Shown piece after piece: positions 33,005 through 42,488 of a stretch of 64,000 bases of DNA. The stretch is from assembly GCF_018881505.1 (NCBI RefSeq), contig NZ_JACVQC010000001.1, forward strand, positions 1,161,927 through 1,225,926, read 5' to 3'. How positions within the stretch are numbered: the stretch's first letter is position 1; every line of letters begins with the position of its first letter. The notes beneath the pieces are model-generated. The model searched no databases. It was given only the letters and a program-made list of their open reading frames with translations, and was not told where the DNA came from. The position numbers and the translations under genes were made by a program. This DNA is from Polynucleobacter sp. UK-Mo-2m-Kol15 (lineage in GTDB: Bacteria > Pseudomonadota > Gammaproteobacteria > Burkholderiales > Burkholderiaceae).

Positions 33005-36000
33005 GTAACTCTACTTTCCCAGTCAACATTGCTTGCGACCCTAATCGCTCGGTCATCGTGTCTGCCTGTGCGGGTAGTGGTAAGACCTGGTTATTGGTTG
33101 CCCGAATGACTCGCCTCCTGTTAGCAGGAGCAAAGCCTCAAGAAATCCTCGCGCTTACTTTCACCAGAAAAGCTGCACAAGAGATGCGTGATCGTCTCTA
33201 TCGCTTGTTGGAGGAGTTTTCACAGGCGAGTGATGGGCAACTTATTGGACATTTAACTGAGCGTGGTCTGAATGCTGATGAGGCGAAGGCATTACTGCCT
33301 ACGGCCAAGTCTCTCTATGTCAAAGTGCTATCAAGCCCACAAGGCATTGTGATTGATACCTTCCATGGTTGGTTTGGCAGGCTCTTAGGCGCAGCACCAA
33401 TCTCAACAGGTATTCAGCCTGGCTTTAGCTTGCGAGAGGATGCAAAGCGTTTACAAGATGAATGTCTGGATGATTGGTGGGGCAATTTACCAGAAGATAT
33501 TACAGCGCATTACGACACCTTATTAAACGCACTAGGAGCAAGTGAGACCCAACACTTCTTAAGGGGTAATTACAGCCTCTTTAAACAAAGAGGCGCTTGG
33601 ACATTCTTCTCTCAAGCATGCAAGGCTCGAGGTACTACCCCCATTGAAAGACTTAAAACTGATTTATCGAGATTAAAGATCAATAATCCGCTCAATAGAA
33701 TTTGGAATGCCATTAACGCCAAAGAAGACTTAGAGTACTTGCATCGCTGCTTTAGTAATAGCGGGGCTACTGAGATGGCCTATGCGCCCACTATTCAGAT
33801 GGCAATCGACCTAAAGAATAGCGGTAGTGATGTGATGGAGATAGCACCGATATTGCAGTCAGTATTTTTGACTCAAGATAAAACCAATCGCACATCGAAT
33901 GATAAAGCTGCGGGCGATCTCAAGAAATACCTCAAAAAAGTGGGCGAACTGGATCGCGAGCAAGAGCATGTGACTTATAAGCAAGCTTGGGCAACTGTTT
34001 TCTTAGAATTTGTTGCCTGGAAAAAAGAGCAAGAGGCCTTCGCACTCAATGAAGCTTGGTTTGCAATGAGCGCTGCCATGATGGATCACGTGAACGTAAG
34101 CAAAGAGTCCATGCGTGTGCGTGACTTTGATGATCTGGAGATCGGCGTTAGTCAGTTGATGGCGGATTCTGCTAATGCGGCCTATTTGCAGTCTCGATTA
34201 GATGCGAAGTACAGGCATATTCTGGTGGATGAGTTTCAGGACACCAATCCTTTGCAGTGGCAAATTCTGCGGGCATGGTTAGAGGGTTATGGTCAGGATG
34301 AATCTAAACCCACCGTCTTTATTGTAGGGGATCCTAAGCAGTCCATTTACCGATTCCGTCGTGCTGACCCGAGATTATTTAATGATGCGCAGGCTTTTTT
34401 AGTAAAGGAAATGAACGCAGCTTCATTAAACCAAAACACTACCCGCCGTAATGCCCCGAAAATCAACGAGGCAGTCAATCAGATCTTCGGTACTGAACAA
34501 TTACCAGAGTCATACCCATTTACCGCCCAAAACACTTTGTGGAAAGCGCCGCTAGTCAATACTGCACTAGCGCCATATTCAAACGAGGGTGAGGCTTATT
34601 TATTGCCTCTCGTGAAATTTGAGATCGAAGAGTTAGAGCAAAGAGCAGGCAATGCTTTTGAGCAAGCCATTGTGGATGCGAGGCAAACTGCTGACGTCGC
34701 TCAGCGCTATCTTGAGGGGCAGCAGGTCAGTACGTTGATCCAGCATCTCATTCAGACGCGTCCTGTAGTGGACCGCATCAATGGTCAAGAAGTCTGGCGC
34801 AAGGCAAGGGAGAGTGATTTCTTGCTATTAGTTAAGCGCCGCAAGTACCTTCCGCAATTTGAGCGTGCTTTACGTGAGGCAGGCTTAGCATTTGAGAGCT
34901 CAAGGCTCGGTGGCTTACTCAATACGCTGGAGATTGATGACCTGATTGCACTCTTAACCGTCTTGGTAACGCCGCGGCATGATTTGCCGCTTGCCCAGGT
35001 ATTGAGAAGCCCGATCTTTGCATTTACGGAGAGCCAAATGCAAACCCTTGTTAAGGCAATGGCATCTAATCAATATCGCTCGTGGTGGGATGCTTTGCAA
35101 GAGAGCCTAGATGCTGGCTTGATACAGGCAGCGCGGTATTTGGAGCATTGGCGCATATTAGGTGAGCGCTTGCCAGTACACGACTTGCTTGATCAGATTT
35201 ATCAAGAGAGTGATTTGCGTATTAAGTACGCTAGCGTTTCTCAAGAAATTGCCCGTGCGCAAGTTTTAGCGAACCTCGATGCCTTCCTGGAGCTCGCGCT
35301 GAATCAAGATGGCGGCCGTTATCCAAGCTTAGGTCGCTTTATTGAGGAGATTAATACTATTCGTCGTGGCGATGATGATGAAACTCCTGATGAGGGTGAT
35401 GTTGAGGTGGAATCTGATCTCGCAGAGCTTGATGAGGGGAGTGAGTTATCTGAGGAGGATAAAAACAAGCGCGTTCGTATCATGACAATTCATGGAGCAA
35501 AAGGCTTGGAGTCACCATTTGTGATTATGCTCGATGCGAACCATACCGAAGGTAAGGCGGATCATCGTGGCGTCTTATTGGATTGGCCGCCCGAGAGTGA
35601 GAGTCCTAGCCATTTGTCGATGTACACCTCAGCCACCTTAACCAATCCTCGCAGTGAAGTACGTGAACGCGAGCTACTGATTGGTAAGAACGAGAACTGG
35701 AATCTGCTCTACGTTGCAATGACCAGAGCAAAGCAGGGACTGTGGATTAGTGGTGTAGCAAAAGCACCCACCACAAAAAATCCTACAGGCTTAGATGAAA
35801 AGTCTTGGTATGGCAGAGCAACCTTGGGTCAGTTACCTATTCTTGAAAATCAACCAGGGCTGACAGAAAACAATACCCAGGTGCTAGTAAGTCAAAAGAC
35901 CGTCAATCCAAAGAGCTTCATGATGGATGACTTTGAGATTTCCTGGGGCTCGGCTAAGGCTGGTCATGAGCAACAGCTCAAAAATATCGAAAGTGGCATG

Positions 36001-36507
36001 ACTTTAGAAGTATTTCAAGGTGATGGCAATACGCTGGATAGCTCCAAAATATTGGAGGAGGGCGTGCACTTTCATCAATTGCTACAGCATCTCACTCTAC
36101 AGACTGGAGCAGCAAAGCCAGAAGCGATTGGCGTAGAGCAAATCGCACGCTGGCTCGGCATTAGCAATGAGTTGGCAAGTAAAGCACTAGACCAGGCAAC
36201 TACCGTTCTCAATACTCAAGAGCTTGAGCAATACCTCACAGCAAATCAGTGGGTGCAAGCCTGGAATGAGATTGATATTGTGAGTTTAGATGGCAAGAGC
36301 TTCCGCTTAGATCGCTTAGTAGAGTTTGGCGATCACTTGGCTATCCTGGATTACAAGCTTACGATCCCCGAGGTGGGTAGTGAAGCTCATAATAAATACC
36401 GCGCACAGCTCAATAACTACAAACAAGAGCTGGCCAGAATACGTCCAGATAAGCCGGCTAAGGCCTTTTTAATCTCTGCTAGAGGTGAGATTGCGGAAGT
36501 TAGTTAA
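33001..36507 (+). CDS. addA: AddA-type UvrD-family helicase-nuclease
   Basis: An 1168-residue superfamily 1 helicase. Motifs in order: SACAGSGKTWLL (I), LTFTRKAAQEM (Ia), VDEFQDTNPLQW (II), GDPKQSIYRFRRADPRLF (III), MTIHGAKGLE (V) and LLYVAMTRAKQ (VI), then a C-terminal nuclease with LDRLVEF and LAILDYKLT. GTG 33001 is the start: AAAGGGG precedes it and it overlaps the addB stop. AddAB unwinds and trims DNA ends for RecA loading. Confidence 0.92.
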   Translation: MSNSTFPVNIACDPNRSVIVSACAGSGKTWLLVARMTRLLLAGAKPQEILALTFTRKAAQEMRDRLYRLLEEFSQASDGQLIGHLTERGLNADEAKALLPTAKSLYVKVLSSPQGIVIDTFHGWFGRLLGAAPISTGIQPGFSLREDAKRLQDECLDDWWGNLPEDITAHYDTLLNALGASETQHFLRGNYSLFKQRGAWTFFSQACKARGTTPIERLKTDLSRLKINNPLNRIWNAINAKEDLEYLHRCFSNSGATEMAYAPTIQMAIDLKNSGSDVMEIAPILQSVFLTQDKTNRTSNDKAAGDLKKYLKKVGELDREQEHVTYKQAWATVFLEFVAWKKEQEAFALNEAWFAMSAAMMDHVNVSKESMRVRDFDDLEIGVSQLMADSANAAYLQSRLDAKYRHILVDEFQDTNPLQWQILRAWLEGYGQDESKPTVFIVGDPKQSIYRFRRADPRLFNDAQAFLVKEMNAASLNQNTTRRNAPKINEAVNQIFGTEQLPESYPFTAQNTLWKAPLVNTALAPYSNEGEAYLLPLVKFEIEELEQRAGNAFEQAIVDARQTADVAQRYLEGQQVSTLIQHLIQTRPVVDRINGQEVWRKARESDFLLLVKRRKYLPQFERALREAGLAFESSRLGGLLNTLEIDDLIALLTVLVTPRHDLPLAQVLRSPIFAFTESQMQTLVKAMASNQYRSWWDALQESLDAGLIQAARYLEHWRILGERLPVHDLLDQIYQESDLRIKYASVSQEIARAQVLANLDAFLELALNQDGGRYPSLGRFIEEINTIRRGDDDETPDEGDVEVESDLAELDEGSELSEEDKNKRVRIMTIHGAKGLESPFVIMLDANHTEGKADHRGVLLDWPPESESPSHLSMYTSATLTNPRSEVRERELLIGKNENWNLLYVAMTRAKQGLWISGVAKAPTTKNPTGLDEKSWYGRATLGQLPILENQPGLTENNTQVLVSQKTVNPKSFMMDDFEISWGSAKAGHEQQLKNIESGMTLEVFQGDGNTLDSSKILEEGVHFHQLLQHLTLQTGAAKPEAIGVEQIARWLGISNELASKALDQATTVLNTQELEQYLTANQWVQAWNEIDIVSLDGKSFRLDRLVEFGDHLAILDYKLTIPEVGSEAHNKYRAQLNNYKQELARIRPDKPAKAFLISARGEIAEVS

Positions 36508-36515
36508 GCGCATTC

Positions 36516-36863
36516 TTAAGCGGCAATTTTGAGTTTGCTTGAAATTAAATTACCTTTAATAATTTTTTTCTCAACAACTGATATGGATTTAGCTTCTTTT
36601 TTAATTTCACCCAACACCAGATTGATGAACGTTTGCCATCCTTCACCTTTGGATTTGTAGAAATCTAAAACATCCTTATCGATTCTCAGGGTAACTTGCT
36701 CTTTACTTCCACTGCCTAAGGGCCTGCCACGACCACGAACCATTGTGGGTCTGGCCTTCTCCCACTCTTCATCGGTGAATGGAATGGAATCTGGGTCTGC
36801 CATCGCAGCCTTTGTGATTGCAGCATCTTCTGCTGCAGTCGGTCTAATTATTTTCTTTTTCAT
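36516..36863 (-). CDS. brnA: BrnA-family antitoxin
   Basis: A 115-residue antitoxin with a ribbon-helix-helix region. The family core IPFTDEEWEKARP, then GRPLGSGSKEQVTLRIDKDVLDFYKSKGEGWQ, is plain, followed by a basic C-terminal extension of about 25 residues. It neutralises BrnT and represses the operon by binding its promoter. ATG 36863 lies inside the end of brnT (20-base overlap), giving coupled synthesis. Convergent with addA, only nine bases apart. Confidence 0.9.
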   Translation of the reverse strand: MKKKIIRPTAAEDAAITKAAMADPDSIPFTDEEWEKARPTMVRGRGRPLGSGSKEQVTLRIDKDVLDFYKSKGEGWQTFINLVLGEIKKEAKSISVVEKKIIKGNLISSKLKIAA

Positions 36864-37116
36864 ACTTTTCAACCTCCCGAACATTTGCTTTTCTCAAGCT
36901 AATAACTCTGATGCCTACTTTTAGCTCAACGTAAACAATGCAGTACAAGCGTTGCTTCATTGGGACCAGCGCTATGCGCCTTTCCTCACCATAATTTTTC
37001 CTGCCATCAATCCACTCTAGGGCCGCATCCCACTCAAGTAGCTTAGCCTCTGCAAGAGATAAACCGTGTTTCTGAATATTTGAATTATTTTTAGCCAAAT
37101 CATAAGATAATTTCAT
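36844..37116 (-). CDS. brnT: BrnT-family ribonuclease toxin
   Basis: A 90-residue RelE-like toxin. The N-terminal NSNIQKHGLSLAEAKLLEWD and GEERRIALVPMKQRLYCIVYVE followed by IRVISLRKANVREVEKYE match BrnT, which cleaves RNA and halts translation. Toxin-first gene order, as in known brnTA loci. A good sigma-70 promoter lies so close to the ATG that the message may be leaderless. All catalytic-region residues appear intact, so the toxin is probably active. Confidence 0.92.
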   Translation of the reverse strand: MKLSYDLAKNNSNIQKHGLSLAEAKLLEWDAALEWIDGRKNYGEERRIALVPMKQRLYCIVYVELKVGIRVISLRKANVREVEKYEKENN

Positions 37117-37123
37117 CGGAAAT

Positions 37124-37152
37124 ATTGTAGTTACGTTAAATCATATCAGCAA
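37124..37152 (-). promoter_or_regulatory. Sigma-70 promoter of brnTA
   Basis: On the minus strand TTGCTG (37152-37147), 17 bases, TACAAT (37129-37124). The predicted start of transcription falls within a base or two of the brnT ATG at 37116, and no ribosome site is visible. Confidence 0.62.
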
Positions 37153-37210
37153 TGAATTAATATAGCTACAAAAAATAAGGATACTCAATCCCTAGAATTG
37201 CGACACCCCC

Positions 37211-37238
37211 CTTGAAATCCACCCTAAAGGCCCTATAT
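37211..37238 (+). promoter_or_regulatory. Heat-shock (sigma-32) type promoter
   Basis: CTTGAAA at 37211-37217, a 13-base spacer, and CCCTATAT at 37231-37238. The consensus for RpoH is CTTGAAA, 11-16 bases, CCCCATnT, so only one base departs. It lies about 75 bases upstream of the TPR-protein start and nothing else on this strand follows. Confidence 0.65.
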
Positions 37239-37310
37239 AAGTAGGGAATAGCAAAAATCCCCAAACTGGGGATAATGAAATTCACACGAAACATCCTACA
37301 AGGAGTCTTC

Positions 37311-38153
37311 ATGAACATTCGTAAGGTAATTAATTTATTCGTTGGCGTATTCGCAGCAGCGCTACTGTTAACTAGCAACGTAGCATTTGCCGAGGCAACT
37401 TTGCCAGAGGTATATAAGGCGGTGCAATCTGGGCAGATGGCTAAAGCTGATGCCATGATGAAAGAAGTTCTGCAAAACCATCCTAATAGTGCAAAGGCGC
37501 ACTATGTGGCGGCCGAGCTTTATGCCAAAGAAGGTAAGGTAGAGGCAGCGCGCAATCATTTCATTAAAGCGCAAAACTTAGCGCCAGGATTGCCATTTGC
37601 ACAAGCTGAGTCTGTACAAAAGCTTCAAGTGCAATTGGCTAGCACTCAAGTTGCGCCTGTTGCTAGTCAGACATCCATTTTCAGCAATCCACTCTTCTGG
37701 GGTTTGATTGCCATCTTGGTCATTGGTGTTGTTATGGTGATGAAGCGTCGCAAGGCTGAAGCAGTACAGGTCTACAACGCACCAAGCGCTGGTTACCCTG
37801 GAACTCCAGGCGGCCCTGTTGGCAATCCTGGTGGCCCCGGTGGCCCTGGATACCCTGGAGCCCCAGCCGCAGGTGGAATGGGTAGCGGCTTGATGGGTAG
37901 TCTTGCAACTGGTGCTGCATTAGGTGCTGGTATGTATGCTGGTCAAGCATTGGCCGGTAGCCTCATGGGTGGGCGCGATGGCGGCCATTCCAATGCGGAT
38001 CACGGCGCCAACCCTAACTTCAATCAAGTGGGCGGCCCAGCATCTTTGGATCCTAATTTTGGTGTGCGTGATGCTAGCTCTTGGGATGATGCTAGCTCAG
38101 GATCCTCTTGGGATGACAATAGCGGCGGTGGCGATTTTATGAGTGATGTTTAA
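37311..38153 (+). CDS. TPR-containing single-pass membrane protein with Gly-rich tail
   Basis: A 280-residue envelope protein. Signal or anchor helix at residues 5-27, two TPR-like units (KADAMMKEVLQNHPNSAKAHY and VEAARNHFIKAQNLAP), a membrane helix at about residues 127-145, then a Pro/Gly-rich cytoplasmic tail ending in repeats of SSWDD and GGGDFMSD. A similar tail is seen in proteins of the YgcG/TPM neighbourhood. ATG 37311 is chosen for its AAGGAG six bases upstream. The heat-shock-type promoter suggests a stress role. Confidence 0.72.
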   Translation: MNIRKVINLFVGVFAAALLLTSNVAFAEATLPEVYKAVQSGQMAKADAMMKEVLQNHPNSAKAHYVAAELYAKEGKVEAARNHFIKAQNLAPGLPFAQAESVQKLQVQLASTQVAPVASQTSIFSNPLFWGLIAILVIGVVMVMKRRKAEAVQVYNAPSAGYPGTPGGPVGNPGGPGGPGYPGAPAAGGMGSGLMGSLATGAALGAGMYAGQALAGSLMGGRDGGHSNADHGANPNFNQVGGPASLDPNFGVRDASSWDDASSGSSWDDNSGGGDFMSDV

Positions 38154-38191
38154 TTCACTCTTAATCTAGTAGCTCATATAAGAAAGTATTT

Positions 38192-38692
38192 ATGGCAATT
38201 TCCATGTACCAAGCATCGGCTCCTCAGTTAAAGAAGATGCTAGTCAACCTCACCACCATTCTGACTATGGCTGAAGAGTATGCAGCTGCAAAAGGAGTCG
38301 ATGGTAAGGTCTTGGTAGAGGCGCGCTTATTTCCAGATATGTTCCCTTTGGCAAGGCAGGTACAGATTGCTTGCGATCAAGTGAAGTTTGGTTTGGCGCG
38401 TTTGGCTGGCGTTGAAGCGCCTAAATTTGAGGATACCGAAAGCACGCTTCCTCAGCTAAAAGAGCGTATTGCTAAAACGATTGCCTTTATGGATAGCATC
38501 AAGCCTGAGCAGATTGATGGCACAGAAGCAAAAGTGATTCAGTTCTCAATTAAAGGGCGAAACTTTGAGTTTGTGGGTGAGCAATATGTACTGACTTGGA
38601 TCATCCCAAACTTTTACTTTCATATCACAACCACCTACAACATCTTGCGTCACAACGGTATTGAGCTCGGCAAAGCAGATTACCTCGGCTAA
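38192..38692 (+). CDS. DUF1993 family protein
   Basis: A 166-residue soluble protein of the DUF1993 family, which adopts a DinB-like four-helix bundle. Family segments: AISMYQASAPQLKKMLVNL at the start, ARLFPDMFPLARQVQIACD, and PNFYFHITTTYNILRHNGIELGKADYLG at the end. No biochemical role is known. It follows the TPR gene by 38 bases and so may share the heat-shock-type promoter. Confidence 0.88.
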   Translation: MAISMYQASAPQLKKMLVNLTTILTMAEEYAAAKGVDGKVLVEARLFPDMFPLARQVQIACDQVKFGLARLAGVEAPKFEDTESTLPQLKERIAKTIAFMDSIKPEQIDGTEAKVIQFSIKGRNFEFVGEQYVLTWIIPNFYFHITTTYNILRHNGIELGKADYLG

Positions 38693-38808
38693 TGGAGAGA
38701 GTAATCGAGTTCATCGAAGTGGGGCATGCTTGGCTTTATCGGGCAAGTATCTATACCTCGAATGCTCTCTTAGATGATCCAGCTATTCTGGCTTTTGTAT
38801 TCTGCTAA
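38692..38808 (+). CDS. Candidate small ORF coupled to the DUF1993 gene
   Basis: A 38-codon frame starting with ATG inside TAATG, the stop of the DUF1993 gene. It encodes MERVIEFIEV, then a mildly hydrophobic peptide ending LAFVFC. The TAATG overlap favours reinitiation, and a terminator follows 26 bases later, so the frame fits a transcript end. No family is recognised and coding signals are weak; it may be a chance frame. Confidence 0.35.
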   Translation: MERVIEFIEVGHAWLYRASIYTSNALLDDPAILAFVFC

Positions 38809-38834
38809 GAAGAAACCAAGCGGCTCAAGCAAAT

Positions 38835-38857
38835 AAACCACCTTCGGGTGGTTTTTT
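38835..38857 (+). terminator. Rho-independent terminator
   Basis: AAACCACC, loop TTCG, GGTGGTTTTTT: a stable UUCG-tetraloop hairpin with a T-run. It ends the TPR/DUF1993 transcript. Confidence 0.93.
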
Positions 38858-38892
38858 CTTACTCAGCATCTTTTCCTGTAAAAATGGTGCTT

Positions 38893-40578
38893 ATGAAAAT
38901 GATTCCCAAAATTCTGCTTGGTGCTTACCTGTCCATTGCGATAATGGCCTTTGCTGCTCCTGCCACCCTCTATTTCAACGGGGACATTTTGACAATGGAG
39001 GGTGACAGTCCCAAGTATGTTGAAGCCGTTTTGGTGAAAGATGACAAGATTGCCTTTGTTGGCGATATGAAAGGGGCTTTGGCTGAGGCTGGCAGCAATG
39101 CCAATATGTACGACTTAAAAGGCCATACCCTCTTGCCAGGTTTTATTGATACCTGGGGTCACTTTGCCTTAATTGCGCAAGATACCTTTGGTGTGAATGT
39201 GGCGTACTTTTCTAAAAATCCACCGCAGAATAAGTCACAGCTATTTGAAAAACTCAAAACTGAAGGAAGGCTTTTTAATGGCTGGATTGTTGGTACGGGA
39301 TACTCAGAAGCGCTATTAAGCGATGGTGCAATTACCTTGGCAGAGCTTGATCAGGCCTTTCCCAATACACCAGTCTTAATCGAAAATATTTCTACCTTAA
39401 CAGGTATGGTTAATAGTGCGGGCCTGAAAAAATTAGGGATTACTGCTGCTACTAAAGCAGTGAATGGATTTATTCCAGTTGATCCCAAAACAGGGAGGCT
39501 GACTGGTGACCTCATTGGTATGCCTTACCTCACTGCAGTAGCAAAAGCAGTAGGTAAATATTCTCAAGACCTCACATTTGAGTCTTATCGCAAGGCTGAG
39601 AAGCTCTATCTGTCTAACGGCTTTACCACTGCGCAGAGCTATGAGGCCACTCTGGCTGATATGCGTAATATGCGTTTGGCAGTAGATCGCGGCATTGTAA
39701 AGCTTGACTTAATTGCTTTGCCAACTTTTGATATTGTTGATGAGCTCCTCAAGACTAACCCCAATTACCAGTTTGGTGTCTACAGTAAAGGTGATCGAGG
39801 GTTCAAGGTGGCGGGTATACAAGTACCCACTGATGGTGCGCCACAGTTACGCTTGGCTTACTTCACCAAACCCTATTTGGATACTACGGGATTTTCAAAA
39901 GATTGGCGCGGATTTCCCTATTATCCGCAAAGCTTGATTGATAAGTACGTCAAACTAGCTTATGAGAAAAATATCCAGTACTTTGGCTATAGCAATGGTG
40001 ACGCTGGTATTGATATGACGCTTGCGGCTATTGATAAGGCTATCAAAGAGACTGGCATTCGTGATGATCGCCGTACGGTGATCGCCCATTCATTTTTTGT
40101 GCGTGATGATCAACTAGAAGGCTATAAAAAGAACAACATCATGGCAGTGATGATGCCAAACGACACCTGGTTATATGGCGATGTTTATCCCCGGGTTCTG
40201 GGGGCAGAGCGAGCTAATAATTTAAGTCCACTAAAGAGTGCGCATGCAAAAGGCGTCGTAACTGCGCTTCACAATGACACCCCGTCTTCTGGCCCGAATG
40301 TGCTCTTTTCCATTTGGAGTGCCGTGAACCGCCAAACTGCTTCTGGAAATACCTTAGGACTAGAGCAAAAAGTGGATCCCTATCTTGCGATGAAAGGTTT
40401 TACTAGTAATGCGGCCTATCAATACAAGGAAGAGGGTAAAAAAGGCACTATCACTGTAGGCAAGTTGGCCGACTTGGTTGAGCTCAATCAAAACCCTCTT
40501 AAGGTAGACCCAAAAGACATCAAGGACATTGGTGTTGTGCAAACCATTAAGGCTGGAGTATCGCTGTATCAGAACTGA
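38893..40578 (+). CDS. Exported amidohydrolase family protein (YtcJ-like)
   Basis: A 561-residue metal-dependent hydrolase with a signal peptide (MKMIPKILLGAYLSIAIMAF then AAPA). It shows TLLPGFIDTWGHFALI, where the usual HxH metal pair of amidohydrolases is altered to WGH, later VIAHSFFVRDD, and the C-terminal GKLADLVELNQNP. COG1574/YtcJ-type enzymes act on N-substituted amides. The first metal histidine seems to be lost, so activity is uncertain. ATG 38884 is an alternative start. Confidence 0.75.
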   Translation: MKMIPKILLGAYLSIAIMAFAAPATLYFNGDILTMEGDSPKYVEAVLVKDDKIAFVGDMKGALAEAGSNANMYDLKGHTLLPGFIDTWGHFALIAQDTFGVNVAYFSKNPPQNKSQLFEKLKTEGRLFNGWIVGTGYSEALLSDGAITLAELDQAFPNTPVLIENISTLTGMVNSAGLKKLGITAATKAVNGFIPVDPKTGRLTGDLIGMPYLTAVAKAVGKYSQDLTFESYRKAEKLYLSNGFTTAQSYEATLADMRNMRLAVDRGIVKLDLIALPTFDIVDELLKTNPNYQFGVYSKGDRGFKVAGIQVPTDGAPQLRLAYFTKPYLDTTGFSKDWRGFPYYPQSLIDKYVKLAYEKNIQYFGYSNGDAGIDMTLAAIDKAIKETGIRDDRRTVIAHSFFVRDDQLEGYKKNNIMAVMMPNDTWLYGDVYPRVLGAERANNLSPLKSAHAKGVVTALHNDTPSSGPNVLFSIWSAVNRQTASGNTLGLEQKVDPYLAMKGFTSNAAYQYKEEGKKGTITVGKLADLVELNQNPLKVDPKDIKDIGVVQTIKAGVSLYQN

Positions 40579-40692: not shown

Positions 40693-41190
40693 ATGGCACT
40701 TATCGCACTTCCACAAAGCTCCTCAGAAAGCACGCTGACCCAGACTCCACAAGCCTTGGCGGCAAATGGCGTCTATGAGTTCAAACTCCTGAGTCATCGC
40801 ATTTCAGCGGGATTTCCGAGCCCAGCAGCGGATTATGCCGAGGAAGGTCTCGATTTAAACCACTATTTAGTCCAAAACAAGCCGGCCACCTTCATGTTCA
40901 CTGTCAAAGGCGATTCAATGATGGGCGCGGGTATTTGTGACGGCGATAAGGTGGTGGTGGATAAAGCCCTCAAGCCAAAACATAAAGACATCGTGGTTGC
41001 CGTAGTGGATGACGAGTACACCATCAAGCGCCTCTATCAGTTGCGCGGCAAAACTGAGCTTCAGCCAGAGAACCCCAATTACGAGCCCATTACCTTTAAC
41101 GAGAATAGTGAACTCCAAATCTGGGGTGTGGTCGTTGGGGTAGTGCGTAAGTACAGCCACGCTAGCACCAGAAACAGAAGATCCGCATGA
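40693..41190 (+). CDS. umuD: UmuD-type translesion polymerase accessory protein
   Basis: A 165-residue S24-family self-cleaving protein. The Ala39-Gly40 scissile bond lies in [10 protein letters not shown]; the catalytic dyad is Ser75 in [10 protein letters not shown] and Lys112 in DEYTIKRL. RecA filaments trigger cleavage to UmuD', which joins UmuC to form polymerase V. Strong LexA control is visible upstream, and no ribosome site precedes ATG 40693. The stop overlaps the umuC start (ATGA). Slightly longer N terminus than E. coli UmuD. Confidence 0.94.
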
Positions 41191-42488
41191 ACCAAGCCGG
41201 CCAAACGAATCAACTCTTCGCACTCGTTGATGTGAACAACTTCTATGTCTCTTGCGAGCGCGTATTTGCGCCCAAGCTAGAAGATGTCCCCATGGTAGTT
41301 CTATCGAATAACGATGGTTGTGCCGTAGCGCGTAGTGCTGAAGTCAAAGCGCTAGGTGTGAAGATGGGTACACCCTGGTTTCAGATGAAGGATTTGGCTA
41401 AGGAGCACGGTATCCAGGCCTATTCTTCAAACTACACCTTGTATGGCGATATGAGTGGCAGGGTAGTGGAAATCTTAAGAAAGTTCACGCCCAATTTAGA
41501 GGTCTACAGTATTGATGAGAGCTTTCTGCAAATCGAGACAGTGCTCAAGCAATACGCTGACCCTACTAGTCTGGGTCAAATCATCAAGCAAGATGTTAAA
41601 GACACCACAGGCTTGCCTGTATGTGTTGGCATTGGAGCAAGTAAGACGCTCGCTAAGTTGGCCAATCACTTGGCTAAAAAGAATCCCCAGTTTGCTGGTG
41701 TGTGTGACATTAGCTCCATGCCAAAAGCAATGCTCTATCAGTGGATGGCAGAGACAGCGGTAGGTGAGGTGTGGGGTATTGGCTGCAAGACTGCTAAGAA
41801 GCTTAAAGAACTGAAGATCAACAGCGTATTTGATTTGGTGCAAGTATCACCACAAGCCATGCGGCAACAGTTTGGCGTTGTGATTGAGCGCATTTGCTAC
41901 GAGTTGCGTGGCGTATCTTGCTTGCAATTGGAAGAAGTGGCTCCAGCTAAACAGCAAATCATTTCTTCCAGAAGTTTTGGTAAACCTGTGACCTCAATAG
42001 AGGAGTTGGCTGAGTCTGTGGCTACCCATGCTGCAAGAGGCGCCGAGAAACTTAGAAGCCAAAAATCCGTTACGGGCGCGCTCACCATCTTTGTGCAAAC
42101 CAATCCACATAAACCATTTGAGCCACAACACCATCAAAGCATCACAGTAGTCCTGAGTGATCCTAGTGATAACACCTTAACGCTCACTAGTGCTGGATTA
42201 AAAGGACTAAAGCAAATCTACAAAGCCGGCTTTAAGTACAAGAAGGCAGGCGTCATTTTTAATCTCTTGGCCGATAAACCCACCATGCAGCAATCCCTAT
42301 TTGATGACATGGAAGTCAAAGGTAAATCGGCTGGACTCATGAAAGCCATGGACTCAATTAACAGCCGCTTTGGTAATGCCGCCATCAAAACCGCAGCATC
42401 TGGTACTAAGCAGGACTGGAAGATGCGATCGGGCAACAAGTCACCGAACTACACCACACAGTGGGATGAATTACCTGTAGCACGATAA
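41187..42488 (+). CDS. umuC: UmuC, DNA polymerase V catalytic subunit
   Basis: A 433-residue Y-family polymerase. [19 protein letters not shown] carries the first metal aspartate, [10 protein letters not shown] the acidic pair, and [18 protein letters not shown] plus [13 protein letters not shown] the fingers and thumb. The C-terminal UmuC-specific domain ends in [13 protein letters not shown]. It copies across damaged bases under SOS. Starts within the umuD stop, so translation is coupled. Length matches the family. Confidence 0.95.

Follow-up and report, generated by a model that had tools for sequence, protein, structure and literature searches.

A probable sigma-32 promoter upstream of an uncharacterised Polynucleobacter gene for a TPR membrane protein

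Does an uncharacterised membrane protein gene of Polynucleobacter belong to the heat-shock regulon and, if so, do the genes behind it belong there as well? The question is raised by two short boxes located on the + strand of the window, i.e. the whole 64-kb stretch of DNA that was analysed. The -35 box CTTGAAA (37211-37217) and the -10 box CCCTATAT (37231-37238) are separated by a spacer of 13 bases, and the pair, spanning 37211-37238, ends 72 bases upstream of the likely ATG (37311) of a gene encoding a TPR protein. The published sigma-32 consensus of E. coli and Shewanella reads CTTGAAA-13/15bp-CCCCAT (PMC3168786), and a second account gives CTTGAAA-[N11/16]-CCCCAT (PMC545781). Both box types are present in the window and their spacing from CTTGAAA lies within 13-15 bp. 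When compared to CTTGAAA/CCCCATAT, 14 of 15 positions are identical, the exception being the fourth base of the -10 box, which is T instead of C; CCCT at this place also occurs at the clpB promoter of the same genome. A near-consensus sigma-32 promoter, one base off the consensus, had been claimed by the first-pass annotation, and the boxes are exactly as it described them. RpoH itself is encoded in the genome (G000:C10:98611-99423, 387.4 bits for a cut-off of 323.1).

The scoring matrix was built from 41 chaperone sites, which had been preselected by the pattern CTTGAA-N14-CCCNAT and did not include those of the TPR gene. The window's site reaches 26.9, a value never matched when the upstream region is shuffled 2000 times, the highest score then being 19.9. 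The threshold of 12, set after the scores were seen, is permissive, as it is attained by 40 of these 2000 shuffles. The site is nevertheless the sole + strand match at or above 12 in the 64 kb, and the - strand displays four, with scores of 12.1-14.1. The promoter pattern is contained in none of 100 shuffled windows. Control by HrcA/CIRCE was considered and rejected: TTAGCACTC-N9-GAGTGCTAA has no match within the window at up to 3 mismatches. A lone near-consensus match could still arise by chance, in which case the gene would be driven by an ordinary vegetative promoter around a GATAAT hexamer found at 37271-37276. The distribution and the conservation of the motif bear directly on this alternative.

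In the window's 2.18-Mb genome, the relaxed pattern CTTGAA-N12..16-CCCNAT has 8 sites, versus 4 for a reversed-pattern control. All 5 sites of the fixed form CTTGAA-N14-CCCNAT precede htpG, clpB, dnaK, grpE and the TPR gene (gene names being assigned by eye), and the -10 box of the latter is spaced as in the four chaperone sites. The chaperone sites begin 65-90 bases before the start codons; that of the TPR gene begins 100 bases before the preferred start and 64 before an upstream in-frame ATG. The three off-spacing sites are located within frames of 256-379 codons. One off-spacing site (L046) ends a frame and lies 60 bp before a ribH-like gene, named by eye, while the grpE site overlaps a 172-codon frame of the opposite strand; frame overlap alone therefore does not tell true sites from false ones. 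Across 101 genomes of the genus, CTTGAA-N14-CCCNAT occurs 330 times and its reversed form 70 times. Sixty of these sites were fetched from 13 genomes, hand-picked among the matches listed rather than drawn at random and including 12 with the TPR gene: they belong to dnaK (13), grpE (12), the TPR gene (9), htpG (8), clpB (8) and others (10), at least 4 of the last group being inside frames of 60 or more codons. Such a concentration on chaperone genes argues against a chance match. A sigma-32-like site, CTTGAAT..GTCCCCATATATA, was also observed in two loci (L169 and L186, genomes G026 and G024) ahead of a gene for a class-II glutamine amidotransferase (a PF00310 match in L169), possibly a glutamate synthase.

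Within the Polynucleobacter clade, CTTGAA is present within 170 bp in 48 of the 54 loci with enough upstream DNA, 33 of them having the exact N14 CCCNAT form, and is absent from L099, L102, L104, L105, L106 and L107. The matrix, applied to loci L053-L104, detects a site in 48 of 51 TPR upstream regions with scores of 18.6-30.1, related genomes not being independent in such counts; L062, whose upstream sequence is cut by a contig end, was excluded. Among the control genes of the genus loci, 5 of 209 reach 12, and the hits in L062, L058 and L068 look like one gene. The conservation upstream of orthologues that had been proposed as a check is thus observed, and it reaches beyond the genus. The first-pass annotation held that its reading would fall if close relatives retained the gene but had lost the boxes; this outcome is encountered in a minority only. 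L107 has a site scoring 20.0 farther upstream, and the true misses are L099, L102 and L104, together with the more distant L105 and L106, both of which score 2.0. These five share one other set of neighbours and occupy another chromosomal site. The box-less copies themselves are divergent, with best-segment identities of 48-53%.

A column profile, computed on the 48 site-bearing loci alone, stays near background until about 3 bases before the -35 box, is complete over CTTGAA, falls over most of the spacer and is high again over CCCCATAT. Conservation that starts at about the -35 box, next to a flank near background, is a second point against a chance match. The genes htpG, clpB, dnaK, grpE, groEL, groES and hrcA are all absent from the 52 genus loci L053-L104. 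As for the immediate neighbourhood in the window, a BrnT toxin/BrnA antitoxin pair (PF04365, PF14384) is found on the minus strand at 36516-37116, flanked by the promoter on one side and, on the other, by a helicase gene identified by eye as UvrD/AddA-like; among five box-bearing genus loci viewed, it is present in L058 only. A UmuD/UmuC-like pair, named by eye, lies at 40693-42488, downstream of an amidohydrolase gene.

Among 300 genomes sampled across the order, 49, including the window's own, have a match to the TPR family, some of the weak matches being to the TPR part only. From the 48 other genomes with a match, 29 were retained for the retrieval of loci. A score of at least 12 is reached in 18 of these 29, each unmatched by 100 shuffles and together representing 7 of 9 families, and the remaining 11 fall below; the presence of the boxes in seven other families is a third point against chance. 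Seventeen of the loci reaching 12 were viewed, and in 13 of them the distance from the first base of the scored site to the start codon is 58-88 bases. Among further control genes in these locus sets, 12 is reached by 1 of 94 and, in the order set, by 0 of 35, from which three of 38 were excluded as they scored at least 12 but were the TPR gene itself. A separate set of named non-genus homologues gives a lower yield: 4 of 25 reach 12 (L122, L123, L130 from Undibacterium terreum and L131, where the TPR gene is divergent from groESL) and 21 do not. Seventeen of these 21 are accounted for by nine hrcA-linked Comamonadaceae, two Gallionella and six Methylococcales. In the nine closely related Comamonadaceae loci, which count as one lineage (L110, L111, L113, L116, L117, L120, L121, L125 and L127), the TPR homologue is directly behind hrcA and the boxes have diverged in most, to CTTGCA/CTTGTA-N14-CCTCCA. 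A further uncharacterised protein is encoded next in 8 of these 9 loci (234 aa in L111, L113 and L116). The interpretation of the boxes as a promoter of the sigma-32 type, already put forward in the first-pass annotation, is upheld by their conservation in orthologues and by a motif common to the chaperone genes.

The leader contains a second conserved element, AAACTGGGGATAAT, also written AAACTRGSGATAAT, at 37263-37276 on the + strand (profile columns +52 to +65). Its last six bases form the candidate vegetative -10 GATAAT, for which no convincing -35 could be seen by eye. A sigma-70 search of positions 36000-40200 returned three promoter-like sites, all on the - strand. Within the window, AAACTRGSGATAAT has 19 matches at up to 3 mismatches, one of them exact, where 19 are expected; the element is not enriched, which leaves a general -10 role unproven. 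It was not seen by eye outside the genus, in leaders that are mostly short. A conserved leader hairpin was rejected, as it pairs in the window but, by eye, not in relatives. The presence of this element downstream of the boxes speaks for a purely vegetative promoter, yet in view of the three points raised above it is very improbable that the boxes are a coincidence and that GATAAT alone drives the gene. A milder version would be tandem control, with a real but minor sigma-32 promoter, a dominant vegetative one and a mainly constitutive protein. The genus-wide conservation of the GATAAT element favours it, as does the precedent of E. coli lapAB, which likewise combines RpoH and housekeeping-like promoters (PMC7730581). 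The lack of a good -35, the mostly short leaders among those viewed outside the genus and the absence of enrichment in the window weigh against it, and we consider such a dominance unlikely. Whether the element contributes basal vegetative expression in Polynucleobacter is an evenly balanced matter. The preferred reading is accordingly that of the sigma-32 (RpoH) promoter at 37211-37238, which is highly likely to drive a heat-shock membrane protein.

The gene concerned extends from 37311 to 38153, stop included, on the + strand and encodes 280 amino acids. The start at 37311 is the best one, being preceded by AAGGAG at 37300-37305; the alternative in-frame ATG at 37275 is present in 6 of 23 loci, including that of the window. 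The organisation of the protein was derived from Pfam, AlphaFold, hydropathy and orthologues. A signal peptide (about 1-27) is followed by a TPR domain (27-114), a TM helix (about 126-147, by hydropathy) and then KRRK, and the tail is rich in Gly and Pro, with a GLMGSLATGAALGAGM segment and SSWDD motifs, and of low model confidence. Membership in the TPR class is indicated by Pfam TPR_19 (29.0 bits, cut-off 25), TPR matches being limited to residues 37-93, and the domain comprises about two repeats and one further helix. The AlphaFold model is helical, with a block pLDDT of 80-89 over residues 31-110, and 148 of the 280 residues are under pLDDT 50. Compared with TPR structures, residues 27-114 of the model reach Z values as high as 13.6, which helical repeats commonly attain. 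Orthologues are found in 47 of the 101 genus genomes only and the gene is therefore dispensable.

Two genes follow. The DUF1993 protein (38192-38692, + strand; PF09351, 5.6e-62, 208.9 bits against a gathering score of 23.4) belongs clearly to its family, and a 38-aa miniprotein, MERVIEFIEVGHAWLYRASIYTSNALLDDPAILAFVFC, is encoded at 38692-38808 (+ strand), its ATG overlapping the DUF1993 stop. A terminator-like hairpin with a T-run at 38835-38854 (+ strand) is the likely transcript end, such sites being about as frequent in the scanned region (5) as expected by chance (4.5). All three genes are as initially claimed, i.e. a TPR protein, a DUF1993 protein and a coupled 38-codon frame. The claim that they form one unit holds in part: the 48 TPR loci, present in 47 genomes, comprise 23 with all three genes in a row, 8 with the TPR gene and the miniprotein, 2 with the TPR gene and DUF1993, and 15 with the TPR gene alone, so that a fixed linkage is not observed. 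In both TPR-DUF1993 loci DUF1993 is interrupted by a contig end, and its other half, found elsewhere, is followed by the miniprotein. Over the 101 genomes the miniprotein occurs in 49 and DUF1993 in 46, and a miniprotein match is found without the TPR gene in 17, one of which is weak (G104). In six TPR-less genomes, the regions upstream of DUF1993 and of the miniprotein (8 in all, best score 4.2) are devoid of sigma-32 sites.

The promoter could nonetheless control all three genes as a single stress operon whose products act jointly. They stand in a row at nearly half of the TPR loci, perhaps at 25 of them if the two broken contigs are added; the 38-base gap between the TPR gene and DUF1993 has no visible terminator, the miniprotein start overlaps the preceding stop, and the three genes co-occur above expectation (Fisher p 0.003 or less, with genomes treated as independent, which they are not). 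The solitary TPR genes, the miniproteins found without one and the lack of a sigma-32 site ahead of DUF1993 or the miniprotein in the TPR-less genomes all point the other way, and a joint operon is rather unlikely. A single three-gene heat-shock unit would show constant linkage and a promoter following all three genes, and neither is seen among these loci. Because linkage varies and the six TPR-less genomes have no such site, the promoter is attributed to the TPR gene, DUF1993 and the miniprotein being optional passengers that ride along wherever they happen to lie behind it.

The miniprotein is, on the evidence of its coding sequence, a real and constrained small protein. In the final 25 codons, a set of 21 sequences gives a mean pS of 0.80 versus 0.10 for pN, and differences at the three codon positions of these sequences amount to 797/466/2781. 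Near the end, which reads DDPAILAFxFC, the residues DDPA, L, A, F, F and C are invariant in the alignment of 21; the family signature, strictly C-terminal, is DD[PA]A[ILM]LAxxF[CS]-stop. The model (mean pLDDT 89) displays a helix at 2-28, a break near D29 and a second helix at 30-37. In the sample of 300 genomes from the order, 6 outside the genus match, G292 having an internal stop and being probably due to chance; the non-genus ends are DDPAMLAWAFC, DDAAMLAFIFS, DDPALLAFAFC, DDPAILAMGFC and DDPAMLALAFC. In L255-L259, from other Burkholderiales, the miniprotein is found in other contexts, independently of the TPR gene, and the start codon of L255 is ambiguous. In a class-wide sample of 369, only the window's own genome matched. 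No match was obtained in Pfam (E<=0.1) or PHROGs (E<=0.01), none of significance in NCBIfam (best 0.22, 1 of 32 members), and only noise among PDB sequences (best E 0.35). Six signature octapeptides had no occurrence in the literature searched.

The proposed course of events can be summarized as follows. Upon heat or protein-folding stress, RpoH-RNA polymerase would start near 37245 and transcribe the TPR gene, then DUF1993 and the 38-aa gene where present, to about 38860. The product would be exported by means of its cleaved signal peptide, leaving the TPR domain in the periplasm and one TM helix in the membrane. According to the positive-inside rule, the flexible glycine-rich acidic tail would be cytoplasmic. 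The protein might tentatively be regarded as a membrane-anchored TPR adaptor or scaffold that brings its partners or clients together in the service of envelope proteostasis, the part played by LapB for LpxC/FtsH; domain type, hydropathy and the model are the basis of both this role and the topology. The full proposal goes further and is doubtful: an undescribed core heat-shock protein of the Burkholderiales, acting as a periplasm-facing TPR adaptor that couples the cytoplasmic sigma-32 response to envelope proteostasis, and to which some members of the lineage would have added the 38-aa miniprotein, with its new C-terminal signature, as a partner. Since the sequence upstream of its gene looks like a genuine, conserved heat-shock switch common to the classic chaperone genes, the TPR protein can very probably be counted among the overlooked heat-shock proteins, in freshwater Polynucleobacter as in many relatives. 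For a large bacterial order, the probable heat-shock regulon thereby gains a well-supported, unnamed membrane protein under a promoter equal by sequence to those of dnaK and htpG, and with it a concrete gene for asking in what way this cytoplasmic response benefits the envelope. The 38-aa gene linked to it adds a conserved small protein without significant match in the family libraries searched. No paper on the Polynucleobacter heat-shock regulon was found, as judged by titles or the start of abstracts. Permina and Gelfand reportedly described beta-proteobacterial sigma-32 regulons in 2003 and could already list the TPR gene.

Several known systems can be compared to this locus. YbbN has a thioredoxin domain in addition to its TPR part. 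The latter (PDB 3qou) superposes on that of the window protein with Z 12.2 and rmsd 2.0 over 82 residues, a generic likeness tied with many unrelated rows. Residues 100-269, beginning after the TPR repeats, weakly match DUF2076 (PF09849) with 20.3 bits, under the Pfam gathering score of 38, so that membership in this family is not supported; a DUF2076 match at E<=0.01 is obtained for 13 of the 20 members of set A1 (best 3e-8). Sigma-32 regulon promoters are alike in boxes, spacing and distance to the gene, as are those of dnaK, grpE, htpG and clpB in this genome. One -10 base differs, and the TPR gene is not among the regulon members named in the available part of PMC3168786; it very probably adds to the known sigma-32 regulon, an established kind of promoter control. 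LapB is, according to PMC7730581, an RpoH-controlled inner-membrane protein with nine TPRs and a rubredoxin-like domain, and E. coli lapAB has an RpoH promoter plus a housekeeping-like one. That the window protein is itself a LapB-type regulator of LPS synthesis is suggested by this shared control and location and by a weak match to the LapB model, and is extremely improbable: the match amounts to 15.7 bits for a cut-off of 363, TPRs cover residues 37-93 only and no rubredoxin hit is obtained. A separate LapB-like frame of 407 codons lies elsewhere in the genome (G000:C10:897284-898438, 327.9 bits, itself below the cut-off of 363). Orthology to LapB was rejected on family score, rubredoxin domain and number of TPRs. 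LapB/YciM of E. coli, as an RpoH-controlled and membrane-anchored TPR protein, is the closest working analogue, from which the window protein differs by its about two TPRs, its signal peptide, its mid-protein TM helix and its Gly-rich tail.
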